This document shows positions 18,602-33,491 of a stretch of DNA of 37,139 bases, in pieces. Position 1 is the stretch's first letter. Each line of letters opens with the position of its first letter. Below the pieces are notes generated by a model. That model did no database searches and was not told where the DNA came from. It worked only from the letters and a program-made list of their open reading frames with translations. The stretch lies in assembly GCA_947384285.1 (NCBI GenBank), contig CANDGI010000029.1:1-37139 (forward strand). The letters run 5' to 3'. This DNA is from an uncultured Lachnospiraceae bacterium (lineage in GTDB: Bacteria > Bacillota > Clostridia > Lachnospirales > Lachnospiraceae). The position numbers were made by a program, and so were the translations under genes.

Positions 18602-18919
18602 ATGGAACACAGATTTGAAAGGGAATATGGATGTCTTATTGTGAAGATGCCAAAAGAACTGGATCATCATCAGGCGGAGGTTTTAAAGGAAGAGGCAGAC
18701 AGCTTGATTTTGAAATATCCGGTGCGGAGCCTGGTATTTGATTTTTCAGATACTTGCTTTATGGACAGCTCTGGTATCGGGGTAGTTATTGGAAGGTGCA
18801 AGAATGTGCGTTTTTCCGGCGGTTATGTAAAGGCGGTTCATTTAAATCAGCAGATACGGCGGATTTTCAGGCTGTCTGGTTTGCAGAAAATAATGGAAGT
18901 GGAGCAGGAAGCGGAATGA
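18602..18919 (+). CDS. spoIIAA: Anti-sigma F factor antagonist SpoIIAA
   Basis: A 105-aa STAS-domain protein. The motif FDFSDTCFMDSSGIGVVIGR contains the DSSGIG segment whose Ser is phosphorylated by SpoIIAB and dephosphorylated by SpoIIE. In the unphosphorylated form it binds SpoIIAB and frees sigma-F in the forespore. The start is set at 18602 (MEHRF) because of the preceding AAGGAAGGG; the frame stays open further upstream but through a terminator. It is the first gene of the spoIIA operon. A ~95-nt repeat element lies between it and spoIIAB, where in most spore formers the genes nearly touch. Confidence 0.93.
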   Translation: MEHRFEREYGCLIVKMPKELDHHQAEVLKEEADSLILKYPVRSLVFDFSDTCFMDSSGIGVVIGRCKNVRFSGGYVKAVHLNQQIRRIFRLSGLQKIMEVEQEAE

Positions 18920-18920
18920 T

Positions 18921-19014
18921 AGGAGGAAGGCCGATGCGAAGCATTATTGGCAATGCCTTCCGGCGGTTTGCCGCCGGGGCGAAGAGGAGGGGGCATTTCA
19001 TTGAAAAAAGGAGG
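18921..19014 (+). repeat. Structured repeat element, copy 1 (spoIIAA-spoIIAB gap)
   Basis: An about 94-nt element that recurs at 31402-31491 with roughly 80 matching positions by eye. It starts with AGGAGG (18921-18926) right after the spoIIAA stop and ends with AGGAGG (19009-19014), which is the ribosome binding site of spoIIAB. Internal structure: GGAAGGC (18925-18931) pairs with GCCTTCC (18955-18961) around an ATGC-GAA-GCAT hairpin, then CGGCGG-TTTG-CCGCCG forms a second hairpin. Both copies retain the first stem exactly. The 5' AGGAGG is partly locked in that stem while the 3' one is free. Confidence 0.8.
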
Positions 19015-19019
19015 ATTCT

Positions 19020-19451
19020 ATGGAACAGATAAGGAATGAAATGAAGATGGAGTTTCTGGCGCTATCTTCGAATGAAGGGTTTGCAAGGGTTACGGTAGGA
19101 GCATTTGTGGCGGAATTGAATCCAACGGTGGACGAGCTTGCGGATATCAAGACTGCGGTGAGCGAGGCAGTTACCAATTGCATTATTCATGGATATGAGC
19201 AAAAGGGGGGCAGTATTTGGATTCAATGCAGCATAGAAGGGCAGCAGGTGGAAATTTCTGTGGTAGACACCGGAAAGGGAATCCGGGATGTGGAACAGGC
19301 CAGGGAGCCTTTGTTTACCACCAAGCCGGAGCTGGAAAGGTCTGGCATGGGATTTGCTTTTATGGAAGCATTTATGGATGAGGTGGAAGTGGTTTCTGAA
19401 TTGGGGAAGGGAACTTGCGTTACTATGCGCAAAATCATAGGGAAAGGGTGA
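19020..19451 (+). CDS. spoIIAB: Anti-sigma F factor / serine kinase SpoIIAB
   Basis: A 143-aa GHKL-type protein. The N box reads EAVTNCIIHGY, the G1 box DTGKGI, and the G2 region RSGMGFAFMEAF. It binds and inhibits sigma-F and phosphorylates SpoIIAA. Length matches the B. subtilis protein (about 146 aa). The ATG is 5 nt after AGGAGG, which belongs to the 3' end of the upstream repeat element. sigF starts 4 nt after its stop, so the two are translationally coupled. Confidence 0.95.
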   Translation: MEQIRNEMKMEFLALSSNEGFARVTVGAFVAELNPTVDELADIKTAVSEAVTNCIIHGYEQKGGSIWIQCSIEGQQVEISVVDTGKGIRDVEQAREPLFTTKPELERSGMGFAFMEAFMDEVEVVSELGKGTCVTMRKIIGKG

Positions 19452-26722: not shown

Positions 26723-28648
26723 ATGATAAAAGATATTATGAAGTCTAATGAAACAGCTCTTCCGAATGCAAGGCAAATGGAAGCGTTAAAGGAAAATTTC
26801 CCATCCTGTTTTAGAGAAGATGGAGGCTTTGATATTGAAAGGTTCAAAGAATATTTAAGTAACAAATTGACAGTAAACAATGAAGGATACGAACTGAAAT
26901 TCCTAGGCAAAAACTATGCCCGTTTATTAGCTTCTATGGATACTACGACTGTTATTGTTCCGGATGAAGAACATAATAAGAAACCTGAGAACAAGAATAG
27001 CCAGAATATCTATATTTCCGGTGACAACCTGGATGGATTAAAGCAGCTGTTGAAAAGTTATGCCAATCAGGTGAAGTGCATTTATATTGACCCTCCATAT
27101 AATACAGGGTCTGATGGTTTTGTATATAACGACAATTTCAATTTCACACCGGAAGAATTGTCTGCAAAACTAAGCATTGATGAAGAGCAGGCAAAGAGGA
27201 TTCTTGACTTAACCAAGAGAGGTTCTGCGTCACATTCCGCGTGGCTGATGTTTATGTACCCTCGTCTGCTGCTGGCAAGGGATTTGCTTACAGATGATGG
27301 AGTTATTTTTATTTCTATTGATGATAATGAGCAGAGCAATCTAAAACTTATTTGTGATGACATATTCGGAGAAGAAAATTTCGAGGGGCATGTTCATTGG
27401 CGCAGACGAAGCAACCAGCCAAATGATAAAACCAAGCTTATCGGTTTGGCAGCGGAGCATATTATGGTATATTCGAGAAATAGCGCAAAGTTAAAAGAAA
27501 AAGGCGTTGGAAAGATTGCGTTAACCGGTGATTTTTCTAACCCAGATAACGATCCCCGCGGCCCATGGGCATCGAAGCCGTGGAAGTCCGGTTCCGATCA
27601 ATCAGGAACCAGATATTCCATAACTACCCCAACAGGCGTTGTTCTTGATGAGGAATGGATGGGGGATGAATCTACATATCAATTGCTTTTAGCAGATAAC
27701 AGAATCATATTTCCCCGGGGCGGCGCTGGAATGCCGCGTAAAAAATATTTTAAATCTGAAAGAGAAGCGGAAGGGCAATGCGCTTGTAATTGGTGGAGCC
27801 ATGAGATATATGGGAACAATCAAGAAGCGGGGAAAGAGCTTGAAAATTTGTTTGGATTCAAAAATGCATTTAGTAATCCGAAGCCAGTTAAATTGATGGA
27901 TACGATCATCAGTCTTGGCAATGTGAAAGACGGTGATATCGTGTTGGATTTCTTCAGCGGTTCCGGCACTACGGCAGAAGCTGTCTTAAAGGCATCCCTT
28001 GACTGTAACTGCAGGTTTATCGTTGTTCAATTGCCAGAGGATATTGACCTTCTGCTTGATAAGGCTTCTGCAAGTGAAAAAGAAAGATGGAATAATATTG
28101 TAAAAATGCTTGATAGCAGCAGCAGGCCCCACTCTTTGGATTATATAGGAATCGAAAGATTAATTCGTGCTTCAAAAAAGATAAAGGAAGAACATCCTGG
28201 AACTTCTGCAGACCTTGGGTTTAAGCATTATATTCTTCAAGAACCGAAAGGAACTACGCTTGATAAATTAGAGCATTTTATTCCTGAAGACCAAGGGATG
28301 TTCCTTACAAATGATATTCTCTCTGACTTTGGGATACAGACTGTTTTAACCACATGGCTGGTAAGAGATGGTTATGGATTTCATGCCGATGTCAAGGCCA
28401 TAGATTTTGAAGGATATACAGGATATTACATTGATAAGCATTTATATCTTATTGACGCTGGCATATCAAAAGAAGCCATTGCAGCTATTGTGGACAATTA
28501 CGAAACAGACGGGGCGTTCAATGCCGAAAATGTGGTTCTTTTTGGCTATAGTTTTGTCTGGACGATGACAGAAGAATTAAAGATGAATTTAGCAAGGCTC
28601 AAAGATACGGAGAAAAATCTTCGTATTAACTTTGATGTCCGCTATTAA
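26723..28648 (+). CDS. Type III restriction-modification system, DNA-methyltransferase (Mod) subunit
   Basis: A 641-aa adenine N6-methyltransferase. Motif IV DPPYNTG is at about residues 123-129 and motif I DFFSGSGTTAEAV near 408, the order of the beta class used by type III Mod. The N-terminal and central parts match Mod length (about 600-680 aa), with the variable target-recognition region between about 230 and 390. Mod alone binds the site and methylates one strand. GGAGGATG precedes the ATG. The gene is visibly AT-richer than neighbouring genes, which fits horizontal acquisition. Its partner Res begins 11 nt after the stop but is broken, so Mod may act as an orphan methyltransferase. Target sequence unknown. 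Confidence 0.92.
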   Translation: MIKDIMKSNETALPNARQMEALKENFPSCFREDGGFDIERFKEYLSNKLTVNNEGYELKFLGKNYARLLASMDTTTVIVPDEEHNKKPENKNSQNIYISGDNLDGLKQLLKSYANQVKCIYIDPPYNTGSDGFVYNDNFNFTPEELSAKLSIDEEQAKRILDLTKRGSASHSAWLMFMYPRLLLARDLLTDDGVIFISIDDNEQSNLKLICDDIFGEENFEGHVHWRRRSNQPNDKTKLIGLAAEHIMVYSRNSAKLKEKGVGKIALTGDFSNPDNDPRGPWASKPWKSGSDQSGTRYSITTPTGVVLDEEWMGDESTYQLLLADNRIIFPRGGAGMPRKKYFKSEREAEGQCACNWWSHEIYGNNQEAGKELENLFGFKNAFSNPKPVKLMDTIISLGNVKDGDIVLDFFSGSGTTAEAVLKASLDCNCRFIVVQLPEDIDLLLDKASASEKERWNNIVKMLDSSSRPHSLDYIGIERLIRASKKIKEEHPGTSADLGFKHYILQEPKGTTLDKLEHFIPEDQGMFLTNDILSDFGIQTVLTTWLVRDGYGFHADVKAIDFEGYTGYYIDKHLYLIDAGISKEAIAAIVDNYETDGAFNAENVVLFGYSFVWTMTEELKMNLARLKDTEKNLRINFDVRY

Positions 28649-28659
28649 GGAGGCGCCAT

Positions 28660-31140
28660 ATGGAATTAATCCTCCAGCAGCAGCTGCCCCATCAACAGAA
28701 GGCAATTGACGCTGTTATTGATGTATTTAAAGATGCTTATATTGCTGCACCTGTTCAGTTTTATGAAAATCCTGCTTTTTCATTGAAAGATACACAGATT
28801 TCAAATAACATAAAGGTTTTGCAAAAGAGCCTTCCGCTAGAATACCGTTCAAGCATCCCAGTATCAGAATGCGGTTATCTGAACCTTGACATTAAGATGG
28901 AAACAGGTACTGGAAAAACTTATGTGTACACGAAGGCAATCTTTGAATTGCATAAGAAATACGGATTTAATAAATTCATTATTGCAGTGCCTTCATTGGC
29001 AATAAAAGCAGGTACAGAGCAGTTTTTGAACGAGCCATACGCTAGACGTCATTTTACTGACGGCTGCGGCTATGGCGCTGAAATAGAAACTTTGGTTTTG
29101 GAAGCACCGAAAAATAAGAAAAAGGAGCGTTCCTATTTTCCAAGTGTTGTAAGTGATTTTGTTAAGGGTTCTTGCCAGAATACAAAGAAGATATATGTTC
29201 TTCTTGTGAATATGCAGCTGTTAACCAATGGCAAGATGCTGGCTCGTGATGATTATGATTATGGTGTGGAGGGATTCTATAGGCCTTTTGATGCACTAGC
29301 GTCAACAAAACCTATGGTTATCATTGACGAACCACATCGTTTTTCCCGGGATCAAAAAGCCTTCAAAGTAATTCTGGATGAAATTAAGCCGCAAGCGATC
29401 ATTCGCTTTGGCGCTACATTCCCGGAAACAGCCACTGGACGCGGAAAAAATAAAATCACGATAAAAGATTATCAGAATCTATTGTATGATTTGAACGCTT
29501 GCGCTTCTTTCAATCAAGGGCTTATTAAGGGGATAGCCAAGGAGCATTTGGAACCAGTATCAAAGAAAGAAGAAAAGGTAAAAATTACTTCTATTGATAG
29601 CAAAGAAGCTGTACATTTCCAGTATAAAAAGAAAGGGGAAACAGCAAAAAATTTCACATTGAAGAAGGGAGATTCTTTGTCTATCGTGAGTGAAGCGTTT
29701 GAAGGCATTACTATTTCCGCAATTGGAAGGACATGCGTTGAATTTTCAAATGGCTTAATTAAAACATCTGGGGAGGAACTTGAGGTGGATATTTATATGA
29801 CATCCTATCAGGAACAAATGCTTCGCCTTGCTCTCCAACGTCATTTTGAAACAGAGAAAGCAAATTTCTGTAATAGAAATTACAAGATAAAAACGCTGGC
29901 TTTGTTTTTCATAGATGATATTACTTCTTATCGAGCGAGCGAAAATGGGAAAAAACCATATTTGCTTACGATGTTCGAAGAATTGTTAAAGGAACAGATG
30001 GAACAGGTGATAGCTTCTTTGGATGGCCGCGATACGGAATATAAAGCATATCTGGAAGCGAGCCTTGCAGATTTGGGTGCTTGCCATGCAGGTTATTTCT
30101 CACAGGACAATAGTGATTCAGATGAAGATATTGCAAAAGAAGTTGATGTTATCCTGCATGGAAAAAAACAGTTGTTATCATTCAAAAACAAGGATGATAG
30201 TCCGAATACACTGCGTTTCCTTTTTTCAAAATGGACGTTGAAGGAAGGATGGGATAATCCGAATGTTTTTACCATTGCAAAACTTCGTTCCAGTGGCAGT
30301 GAGAATAGCAAGCTTCAGGAAGCAGGCCGCGGATTACGGCTTCCTGTTGACGAGAACGGTAATAGGATTTCTAATGAGGAGTTCACACTCAACTATATTG
30401 TGGATTTTACGGAGGCAGATTTTGCTCAGAAACTTGTAGACCAAATCAATGGAGAGCTTCCACAAGCTTCAGCTGTCTCAGAAGAAAGGCTGGAAGCTGT
30501 TGCAAAGAAACTTGGCAGAACAAGTGATGACTTATTTGATGAATTGTACGGCAAACGTTACATTGACAGGCATAACAACATCAAACCCGAAACACGAGAC
30601 GCTTTCTTTGCGGAATATCCTGATTTTGCTGCTGGGCTATCAGCTGGAAAAATTAAGGATAGAAACAAGGAAAAGCCAAAGCCTGTGAAAATCCGCAAGG
30701 AAGTTTACAATGAAATCAAAGAATTATGGGAAAATATCAATCATAGATATCTGTTGTTTTATGATGATGACTTGAACGATAATATCGAGGATGTTGTCTT
30801 AGGACTATTTGAAAAGCCAGGAGTATTTACTGATTTAGTAATGCGCAGCGAACGTGATAAAATCGGCAGTGCAGGAGCAGAAATGAATGCTGTTAGAGAA
30901 ACCGGGGTTCAGTATGTCATTCATAAGACGATGCCATATAATGTTTTTTTAAAAAGGATTTCGGCGGCAACAAGTCTGCCAATCAAAGTTTTGCATTTGG
31001 CATTATGCAGATTTGCTAAGAAGCATGGCACAAATTTTACTGCTCATATAAACGAGAATTCTGCTGCAGGTTTTTGTGCTGAATTTTCAACTTGGAAGAA
31101 TGAAAACCTGCAAGGAAGGTTCAGATATGAACGAAGTTGA
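28660..31140 (+). pseudogene. Type III restriction enzyme Res subunit, truncated by internal deletion
   Basis: The 826-aa frame retains the whole SF2 helicase motor: Walker A METGTGKTY (about residues 81-89), Walker B as DEPH (about 223-226), GATFPETA, and motif VI QEAGRGLRLP near 552. Res proteins normally run to about 950-1000 aa and end with a PD-(D/E)XK nuclease. Here the frame stops after GRFRYERS. The next frame, starting within the last 14 nt, resumes with EVETKDVENKNDLR, which is the E-x-K part of that nuclease. About 100 residues including the PD half appear to be missing, together with a frame change. The protein may still be made and hydrolyse ATP but should not cut DNA. Confidence 0.85.
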
Positions 31141-31383: not shown

Positions 31384-31401
31384 ACTCCAGGAAAATGTTA
31401 C

Positions 31402-31491
31402 AGGAGGAAGGCAATGCGAAGCATTCTGGAAATGCCTTCCGACGATTTGCCGCCGGACCAAAGGGGAGGGGCGTTTCATTGAAAAAGGAGG
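31402..31491 (+). repeat. Structured repeat element, copy 2 (upstream of spoVAD)
   Basis: The second copy of the element at 18921-19014. It is 90 nt, starts with AGGAGG (31402-31407) and ends with AGGAGG (31486-31491), which is the ribosome binding site of spoVAD, 7 nt before its ATG. GGAAGGC (31406-31412) pairs with GCCTTCC (31434-31440) around AATGC-GAA-GCATT. The second hairpin seen in copy 1 is weakened by G-to-A changes (CGACGA against CCGCCG). The end of the element (TTTCATTGAAAAA before AGGAGG) is identical to copy 1 apart from the A-run length. Confidence 0.8.
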
Positions 31492-31498
31492 AAAAATT

Positions 31499-32512
31499 AT
31501 GTCGCAGACAATTGGGACACAGAGCATCCAGTTTGAGCAGGCGCCTTATATCCAAAGCAGCGCCAGCATTGTGGGCACAAAGGAAGGGGAAGGGCCGCTG
31601 GGAAAGCTGTTTGATGTGGTAGGCTCCGACGATAAATTTGGAGAGGAAACATGGGAAGAGGCGGAGAGCACCCTGCAAAAGGAAGCCGCAGTGCTTGCTC
31701 TTGGAAAAGCAAATCTGAAAAAAGAAGATATCCGGTATATTTTCGGCGGAGACCTGCTGGGACAGAATATCGCAACTACATTCGGGCTGATGGAGCTTAA
31801 CATTCCCCTGTTCGGCCTGTACGGCGCCTGTTCTACCGCAGGAGAATCCCTTTCCCTTGGAGCAATGGCAGTTGCAGCAGGGTATGGGGACAATGTGCTG
31901 GCGGTTACCTCCAGCCACTTTGCCAGTGCGGAGAAGCAGTTTCGATTTCCCCTGGAGTACGCCAATCAAAGGCCCCTATCAGCTACCTGGACGGTCACAG
32001 GAGGTGGAGCCTTTATACTTGGGACAAAACGAAGCCATCTTAGGATTACCGGAATTACCACAGGAAAAGTGGTGGACTACGGCGTGAAGGATTCCATGAA
32101 TATGGGAGCGGCGATGGCGCCTGCAGCCTGCGATACCATTTATCAGAACCTGGTGGATTTTAAGCGGCAGCCAGAGGACTACGATAAAATCGTGACAGGC
32201 GATTTGGGCACGGTGGGGCAGGAAATCTTAATTGATCTGTTGAAGGAAAAAGGTTTTGACATTTCCATGGTGCATATGGATTGTGGAATTGAGATTTTTG
32301 ACAGCGAAGCCCAGAACACCAACGCAGGAGGCAGCGGATGCGGATGTTCGGCGGTAACGCTGAGCGCTTTTCTCTTGCCAAAGCTGGAGAAGGGAACGTA
32401 CAAACGTATTTTGTTTGTTCCCACTGGCGCGCTTCTTTCTACCGTCAGCTTCAATGAAGGCCAAAGCGTCCCCGGAATCGCCCACGGAGTAGTGATAGAA
32501 TATGCTGGCTAG
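31499..32512 (+). CDS. spoVAD: Stage V sporulation protein AD
   Basis: A 337-aa thiolase-fold protein of the SpoVAD family. Characteristic blocks are FGLYGACSTAGESLSLGA, the SSHFASAEKQFRFPLEY segment, and GGSGCGCSAV near the C terminus. In Bacillus SpoVAD binds dipicolinic acid on the outer face of the spore inner membrane. Length is normal (about 338 aa). It is the first gene after the RM locus, with its ribosome binding site supplied by the repeat element. spoVAE follows after 30 nt. It should pair functionally with spoVAA-AC located 8.7 kb upstream. Confidence 0.95.
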   Translation: MSQTIGTQSIQFEQAPYIQSSASIVGTKEGEGPLGKLFDVVGSDDKFGEETWEEAESTLQKEAAVLALGKANLKKEDIRYIFGGDLLGQNIATTFGLMELNIPLFGLYGACSTAGESLSLGAMAVAAGYGDNVLAVTSSHFASAEKQFRFPLEYANQRPLSATWTVTGGGAFILGTKRSHLRITGITTGKVVDYGVKDSMNMGAAMAPAACDTIYQNLVDFKRQPEDYDKIVTGDLGTVGQEILIDLLKEKGFDISMVHMDCGIEIFDSEAQNTNAGGSGCGCSAVTLSAFLLPKLEKGTYKRILFVPTGALLSTVSFNEGQSVPGIAHGVVIEYAG

Positions 32513-32981: not shown

Positions 32982-33491
32982 ATGAAGCAGTTTAAGAAAG
33001 TTTTGGTAGGATGTCTGCTGGTTCTGGTATTGAGCAGTGTCACAGCCTGTGGCAGCAATGACAATGGCGAGAACAACGGCACCACTGAAAATGGGAATGG
33101 AACGAATAATACCAATGGAACCAACGGAACTGACAATACCGATGGAACCGACAAAACGAATGGAACGAATAACACCAATGGAACCAACGGAACCAACGGA
33201 ACCAATAATACCAACGGAACCAACAATACGAATGGAACGAATGACACCAATGGAACCAAAGGCCCAGCCAACAATAACAATACGGGAACCAATAATGGCA
33301 CATTGACAGATGATGTGGAAAATCTGGGCGATGATATTGTGGACGGTGTAGAAGACCTGGGTGATGATGTAGAAAACGGCGTAGAGGATATGACAGATGG
33401 AAATGACAAGAACTCTACGAATAACAATAACAATGGAAACAAGAAAGCAAATGGAAACGAAAAGGATGCCAATAAGGCTGGAGCAAGGTAA
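32982..33491 (+). CDS. Asn/Gly/Thr-repeat lipoprotein
   Basis: A 169-aa protein with a lipoprotein signal (MKQFKKVLVGCLLVLVLSS, lipobox VTAC with Cys at about 23). A low-complexity region follows (about 30-92) built of NGT and NNT units, then an acidic segment with the repeated pattern DDVENLGDD / DDVENGVEDMTDG (about 105-137), and an Asn/Lys-rich tail. It should be tethered to the outer face of the membrane. Function is unknown; its position after spoVAE hints at a spore or envelope role, but the 82-nt gap does not prove cotranscription. AAAAGGAG precedes the ATG. Confidence 0.8.
   Translation: MKQFKKVLVGCLLVLVLSSVTACGSNDNGENNGTTENGNGTNNTNGTNGTDNTDGTDKTNGTNNTNGTNGTNGTNNTNGTNNTNGTNDTNGTKGPANNNNTGTNNGTLTDDVENLGDDIVDGVEDLGDDVENGVEDMTDGNDKNSTNNNNNGNKKANGNEKDANKAGAR
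33090..33264 (+). repeat. Degenerate 9-bp/3-codon tandem repeat in the lipoprotein gene
   Basis: Units such as AATACCAAT-GGAACC and AACGGAACC are repeated about twenty times, encoding NTNGT and NGT. Unit sequence varies at third positions. Such tracts are prone to length change by slippage; the unit is a multiple of three so the frame is kept. Confidence 0.75.

Follow-up and report, generated by a model that had tools for sequence, protein, structure and literature searches.

Two GA-cis copies in front of sporulation genes

We have analyzed a stretch of 37,139 nucleotides (contig CANDGI010000029.1, from here on the window) belonging to an uncultured Lachnospiraceae bacterium (GCA_947384285.1, an assembly of 3.23 Mb that is 83% complete). 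Two of its forward-strand genes, spoIIAB (19020-19451, ATG at 19020, HATPase_c_2 domain) and spoVAD (31499-32512, ATG at 31499, PF07451 with E 6.8e-149), are preceded by gaps in which sequence comparison revealed a common element of about 85 nt. A preliminary description had noticed this likeness by eye, and blastn bore it out with 85% identity over query bases 7-101. When the window was compared with Rfam at gathering scores, we obtained five tRNA matches and two matches to GA-cis RNA (RF02987), at 43.1 bits for the spoIIAB copy (model match 18918-19004) and 56.2 bits for the spoVAD copy (31399-31482), both above the gathering threshold of 34.7. The repeat family is therefore not new. Its Rfam consensus runs from a 5' AGGAGG through a stem P1 with the small hairpin P2 inside it, a conserved GACGA motif and a stem P3 to a final GRUAC, and we found all of these parts in our element, with P2 capped by CGAAG.

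The copy before spoIIAB occupies positions 18921-19007 of the forward strand, the right boundary being uncertain by a few A's. It begins with an AGGAGG (18921-18926) that mimics a Shine-Dalgarno (SD) sequence and is directly abutted by a GAT left flank; the corresponding target in the nearest relative, G002, is GATAAGGAGG. P1 (18925-18961) is formed by GGAAGGC at 18925-18931 and GCCTTCC at 18955-18961, and encloses the P2 hairpin ATGC-GAA-GCAT at 18934-18944. To the right of the element comes AAGGAGG (19008-19014), the original SD of spoIIAB, which stands alone in G002 and in most relatives. The copy before spoVAD (31402-31485, forward strand) is built in the same way, with its 5' AGGAGG at 31402-31407, P1 at 31406-31440 (GGAAGGC 31406-31412, GCCTTCC 31434-31440), P2 ATGC-GAA-GCAT at 31414-31424 and the conserved GACGA directly after P1 at 31441-31445. 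It is followed by AGGAGG at 31486-31491, the SD of spoVAD, present as a single copy at the empty site of G002. The AGGAGG at each end, the role of the downstream one as SD of the next gene and the exact identity of GGAAGGC/GCCTTCC and GCGAAGC in both copies had all been read correctly from the letters. The insertion leaves 100 nt between spoIIAA and spoIIAB, where G002 has about 13 nt, a widening that could possibly affect translational coupling of the two genes.

Two other features lie close to the spoVAD gap. Before it are two long frames (26723-31140) that, from their translation alone, resemble the mod and res genes of a type III restriction-modification system, and at 32982-33491 there is a lipoprotein-like frame made mostly of NGTN-type repeats that derive from a 9-nt DNA period.

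Copies in the genome and the genes behind them

Using the spoIIAB copy as query, blastn located 45 places in the same genome (best non-self E 1.1e-27), and the covariance model gave 39 matches at E <= 1, with 29 above the cut-off. Combining both searches we arrived at 47 places, far from the case, contemplated in the preliminary description, of two chance look-alikes. Since both window copies exceed the RF02987 gathering score and there are many matches genome-wide, chance likeness can be excluded.

We brought 46 of the 47 places (all but C13:3482), together with their flanks, into one orientation and searched for an SD followed by a start codon that opens a frame of 55 amino acids or more. 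This arrangement directly follows 36 of 42 copies, four upstream array units having been excluded and the end points of seven partial copies set by hand; the criterion was written after the copies had been seen, and C35:24624 passes on a TTG start. As a background, 1263 of 73278 position-strand combinations of the window pass the same test (1.7%). In 30 of the 36 passing copies the start codon is found 13-20 nt past the matched core. The six failures are C1:10810, C35:17829, C13:24104, C7:52569, C6:103143 and C16:29684, several of them with a purine-rich, AAGGAGG-like 3' flank.

This placement could have arisen without any choice of target, if the element landed at random and selection kept the copies with an intact SD, which would then be the mark of a survivor. 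Coding density is high and most other insertions would do harm, so selection against other landing sites could mimic SD targeting, and no target-choosing enzyme is known. Nevertheless, random landing should also leave survivors between convergent genes and in antisense, and only the six copies listed above fail the test, several of them with an SD-like flank all the same. We regard random landing as unlikely and find it fairly probable that the SD is the true target.

Among 35 downstream proteins scanned, 32 could be assigned to Pfam families (E 1e-5), such as phosphoglucomutase, HemB, GerA, MalQ, polyphosphate kinase, PyrB, DapA, MutS, HisRS, YajC, Ddl, MgtE, LeuRS, ThiD, HPr and SpoVAD, and no pathway common to the 35 was seen. 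An enrichment before sporulation genes, one of the initial expectations, did not materialize: SpoVAD and the GerA protein were recognized by Pfam and SpoIIAB, as a third, by its gene context. GA-cis targets thus do not form a functional class, and a sporulation regulon is rejected given their mixed function. As a separate observation, the 380-aa frame downstream of copy C13:6991 (L025:1596-2735) fuses a HAD hydrolase with a LuxS domain, a combination that to our knowledge is unusual.

Empty sites and distribution among relatives

We have examined the same positions in the genus, in which the genes for SpoIIAB and SpoVAD were found in all 29 genomes. Within 150 nt upstream of spoIIAB the element is present in our genome alone and the site is empty in the other 28; upstream of spoVAD it appears in our genome, G018 and G024, and 26 of the 29 sites are empty. 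These states were judged by eye and agree with the model matches. Empty sites with a single SD, anticipated as a sign of insertion, do therefore exist in relatives. The spoVAD copies of G018 and G024 belong to a subfamily different from ours and relatives on both sides have the site empty, so that, judging from the sequences, the spoVAD SD was probably hit by independent insertions at least twice. Such a repeated hit also speaks against random landing.

The pattern extends to the rest of the genome. A joined query of 40 downstream flanks matched 30 sites in G002, the element missing at 28 of them, including C35:17829, which at 74% identity may not be orthologous. Both genomes carry it at the remaining two, before an MFS gene and the HPr gene. 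At 25 of the 28 empty sites a script found SD and start in both genomes. Comparing G017 with G019 and G018 we obtained 24 places, assigned by similarity and sorted by eye, of which 14 are without the element, 7 have it whole or partial and 3 are unclear. No strain-level polymorphism was seen in the genomes compared, the nearest relative being only 86% identical in two genes.

At E 0.001 GA-cis occurs in 20 of the 29 genus genomes, 19 of them with a match above the cut-off. Our genome has 34 copies by this measure, G017 has 30, G024 17, G019 14 and G018 10, and elsewhere the number is 0-6. In a tree of the spoIIAB and spoVAD genes of 28 genomes (G022 was excluded, its spoVAD being split) these numbers correspond to two bursts far apart, one in our genome and another in G017, G018, G019 and G024. 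At the scale of the family, 7 of 120 evenly drawn genomes, ours included, contain GA-cis under stricter filters (E 1e-6). When the spoIIAB copy was compared with plasmids, one 26-base match (E 0.9) was obtained, and comparison with phages gave none.

Head-to-tail arrays are frequent, with a period of about 80-90 nt and AGGAGG at the junctions. In our reading, the SD mimic at the start of each unit is what allows them to form. Besides, we identified by eye five cases in which one copy is embedded in the P2 arm of a second one, at nearly the same point each time (G017:C95:10437, G017:C19:31003, G017:C59:4458, G018:C26:4577 and G024:C44:2912), one of which was recovered by a regular expression; since their inner ends are shared, the five may not be independent. 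A different kind of tandem is found at G000:C25:29590-29673 (L067) in our own genome, where two 45-nt units contain only the 5' half of the element and likewise extend from AGGAGG to AGGAGG.

Insertion junctions

Where the alignment is best, the left flank abuts the (A)GGAGG of the element and the right flank consists of the target's own run plus SD. Placing the insertion point (^) on the empty sites we read GAT^AAGGAGG for spoIIAB, TTAC^AGGAGG for spoVAD, AAT^AAGGAGA for C1:25354, TTTT^AAGGGAGG for C27:15099, TAT^AAGGAGG for C16:45321, ATTG^AGAAAAGGAGG for C43:6421 and CAC^AGAAGGAGG for C13:12818, the filled right side of this last one being an A run without that G. The readable insertions are in sense orientation and just 5' of the target SD, while at many other sites the flanks are too diverged for the junction to be read. 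Relatives without the element already have an SD at the same place before spoIIAB and spoVAD, so the downstream SD is the gene's own.

The preliminary description had suggested a mobile palindrome that inserts into SD sites and duplicates AGGAGG. The dispersed structured repeat at SD sites is indeed what we see, but not a clean duplication. The 5' AGGAGG is part of the element, the SD behind it that of the gene, so strict duplication finds no support at the readable junctions, and the left A/G run is unlike that of the target at six of them (spoIIAB, C1:25354, C16:45321, C27:15099, C43:6421 and C13:12818). Moreover, GGAGA appears both in the empty site and in the right-hand SD at C1:25354, C10:45165, C3:141513 and C10:18402, against a left copy that reads AGGAGG in the first three (C10:18402 is an array), which argues against plain duplication of AGGAGG. 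C14:51679 and G017:C74 retain the full left run and are compatible with duplication. At C6:104736 we found GGAGA when empty and GGAGG when filled.

It had also been proposed that the element now provides translation initiation of the gene behind it. The proposal fails at the sites with the best resolution, where the gene retains its original SD. A possible exception are 6 of 22 G017 loci, where TTATTATACTAGGAGG, reaching into the right-hand GGAGG, is common to all six and the right-hand SD may for that reason have come with the element.

With AGGAGG flanking the element on both sides and arrays joined at AGGAGG, one could think of spread and array growth that need no enzyme, by recombination between the AGGAGG of the element and that of a gene. 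A crossover at GGAGG predicts the left run of the target, and this prediction fails at the same six sites. Ordinary homologous recombination needs more than six bases of identity, so the motif is too short, and we hold this route to be highly improbable.

Structure and possible regulation

We have examined covariation in 107 distinct copies (109 before two exact duplicates were removed; 13 partial copies of our genome were left out). In P1, 614 of 641 cells are paired with 125 double changes, and each of its six pairs beats all 500 shuffles, bearing in mind that related sequences can exceed shuffles without structure. P3 is paired in 249 of 255 cells (85 of the 107 copies were measured). For P2 the figure was 498 of 510, a biased one as for each copy the arms were those of the best hairpin around the expected position, and no hairpin was obtained in five of the 107 copies. 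Compensatory changes keep the consensus stems of RF02987 in the copies examined, and the structural covariation looked for since the beginning is thus present. Wobble pairs in P1 (23 G-U/U-G versus 9 A-C/C-A) hint weakly at folding of the top strand. Single-sequence folding gave z-scores of -1.3 to -2.3, not taken as evidence, and the lowest-energy folds of the spoIIAB copy are without P1.

In 79 of 102 copies the P2 loop has the form GNA (GAA, GCA, GUA or GGA). Loops of this form with closing G-C pairs, for example GCGAAGC, are described as forming unusually stable DNA mini-hairpins (PMC4686876). A P2 of this type fits recognition as single-stranded DNA and is compatible with RNA as well.

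If GA-cis acted as a cis-regulatory RNA, a riboswitch-like or protein-binding leader with control over translation of the gene behind it, its position before the SD, its strand and its conserved structure would be accounted for. The covariation is strong, GACGA and GNUAC are conserved and the 36 copies mentioned above directly precede SD and start. Such a regulator should however be retained before orthologous genes, and most of these sites are empty in relatives; the downstream genes share no pathway, the copies come in bursts and arrays, and a mobile hairpin recognized as DNA would yield the same covariation. Neither do two further analyses favor it. The predicted unpaired fraction of the downstream SD averages 0.59 at filled and 0.50 at empty sites (25 sites, p 0.17), so no systematic occlusion of the SD appears in predicted pairing. 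The ATG within P2 is well spaced after AGGAGG, which is what a leader peptide requires, and yet in 37 of 122 copies our search pattern detected no SD-ATG, and where the frame of this ATG relative to GACGA could be measured (48 copies) it splits 21/20/7. A conserved leader peptide is thereby rejected. Altogether, regulation of the downstream gene seems to us quite improbable. Covariation and a 5'-UTR position are by themselves not proof of regulation, as hairpin-based mobile DNA gives the same signal.

Probable mobility and known systems

GA-cis has many copies, lineage-specific bursts, empty sites, a readable junction position, a strand bias and covarying stems. That it is mobile we consider very probable, and the likely picture, at least in these Lachnospiraceae, is of a short, non-autonomous mobile unit that inserts in sense at the 5' border of the SD. 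According to this model, the unit measures about 80-95 nt and consists of its own AGGAGG, a hairpin in two tiers with P2 inside P1, GACGA, the P3 stem and a tail rich in A. It would integrate at or just before an A/G run ending in GGAGG. An enzyme acting in trans would move it, presumably by reading the hairpins in single-stranded DNA. For the host gene the consequences would be close to neutral: neither the target SD nor its spacing to the start is altered, so that even genes with housekeeping functions would put up with an insertion before them.

A candidate for this enzyme is a Y1 (HUH) transposase of the IS200/IS605 or RAYT type, which would use one strand, a short target and hairpins as ends. 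Insertion is strand-oriented with no consistent duplication, there are hairpins, and GGAG lies directly 5' of one of them as in some REP sequences. We searched seven genomes (incomplete assemblies) and found full Y1 (PF01797) domains in G017, G019, G002 (two) and G005. Against the candidate, no Y1 match was found in G018 or G024 (genomes incomplete), with 10 and 17 copies, our own genome has just two sub-threshold fragments and G005 has a full domain and 0 copies. Besides, two GA-cis motif patterns are absent at all 8 Y1 loci (some cut by contig ends). The Y1 search in the seven genomes thus revealed no mobilizing enzyme; Y1 genes do not track copy number, and neither copy numbers nor Y1 loci support a Y1 mobilizer. 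By analogy GA-cis resembles HUH (Y1) systems in its manner of working, with membership unsupported, and that an enzyme of this type moves it is possible, if doubtful.

Several known systems share part of this behavior. REP sequences of the REP/RAYT systems are defined by GGAG or GTAG directly 5' of a hairpin, and in the GA-cis consensus AGGAGG precedes P1. Both are short hairpin repeats with GGAG before the stem, in many copies and moved in trans (for GA-cis, by the model above), but our genome, G018 and G024 have no RAYT or complete Y1 gene, and we know of no REP sequences that target SD sites. As MITEs, GA-cis is short, non-coding, non-autonomous and in many copies. It differs from them in that the genus copies lack terminal inverted repeats, their ends being AGGAGG and an A-rich tail, and in that there is no consistent target duplication of fixed length (the left run differs at six sites and fits at two). 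IStrons, described as a group I intron plus an IS (PMC4227781), are also mobile elements that render their own insertion harmless; in GA-cis no intron core was seen, and harmlessness would come from the retained SD and not from splicing.

RF02987 itself is classed in Rfam as RNA ('Gene; sRNA'), whereas in the genus its behavior is that of a mobile repeat found at SD sites. The family was reportedly first described in a 2017 survey. In the text covered by our literature search, 'GA-cis' and 'RF02987' came up in the Rfam 15 paper alone, and nothing was found there on SD-targeted repeats or on GA-cis as a mobile element, the original description of GA-cis lying outside the search.

If the model is right, an unexplained Rfam family is recast as a mobile element. 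The SD is a short and strand-specific target that lies before a large share of the genes, apparently harmless to hit, and offers a route to spread in a compact genome. A broader proposal, evenly balanced in our opinion between acceptance and doubt, is that there is a class of mobile elements that target the ribosome-binding site itself, in which the 5' SD mimic keeps the start intact and at the same time makes a new landing site. What is catalogued as an RNA family would in that case live as a parasite on translation starts, and an enzyme or an RNA-based mechanism, which perhaps uses the anti-Shine-Dalgarno CCTCCTT to read the strand, would move it. The identity of the enzyme that reads AGGAGG is a testable question.

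Two facts do not sit well with a mobile element directed to SD sites: the junctions are not uniform, and in genome G111 most of the 11 copies examined have no start codon directly behind them. Most of these 11 are located inside a longer repeat with inverted ends, and the loci L175, L176, L178, L180, L181, L183 and L184 show the GA-cis core within this dispersed repeat. It may be that a MITE acquired GA-cis here, or that the opposite took place.
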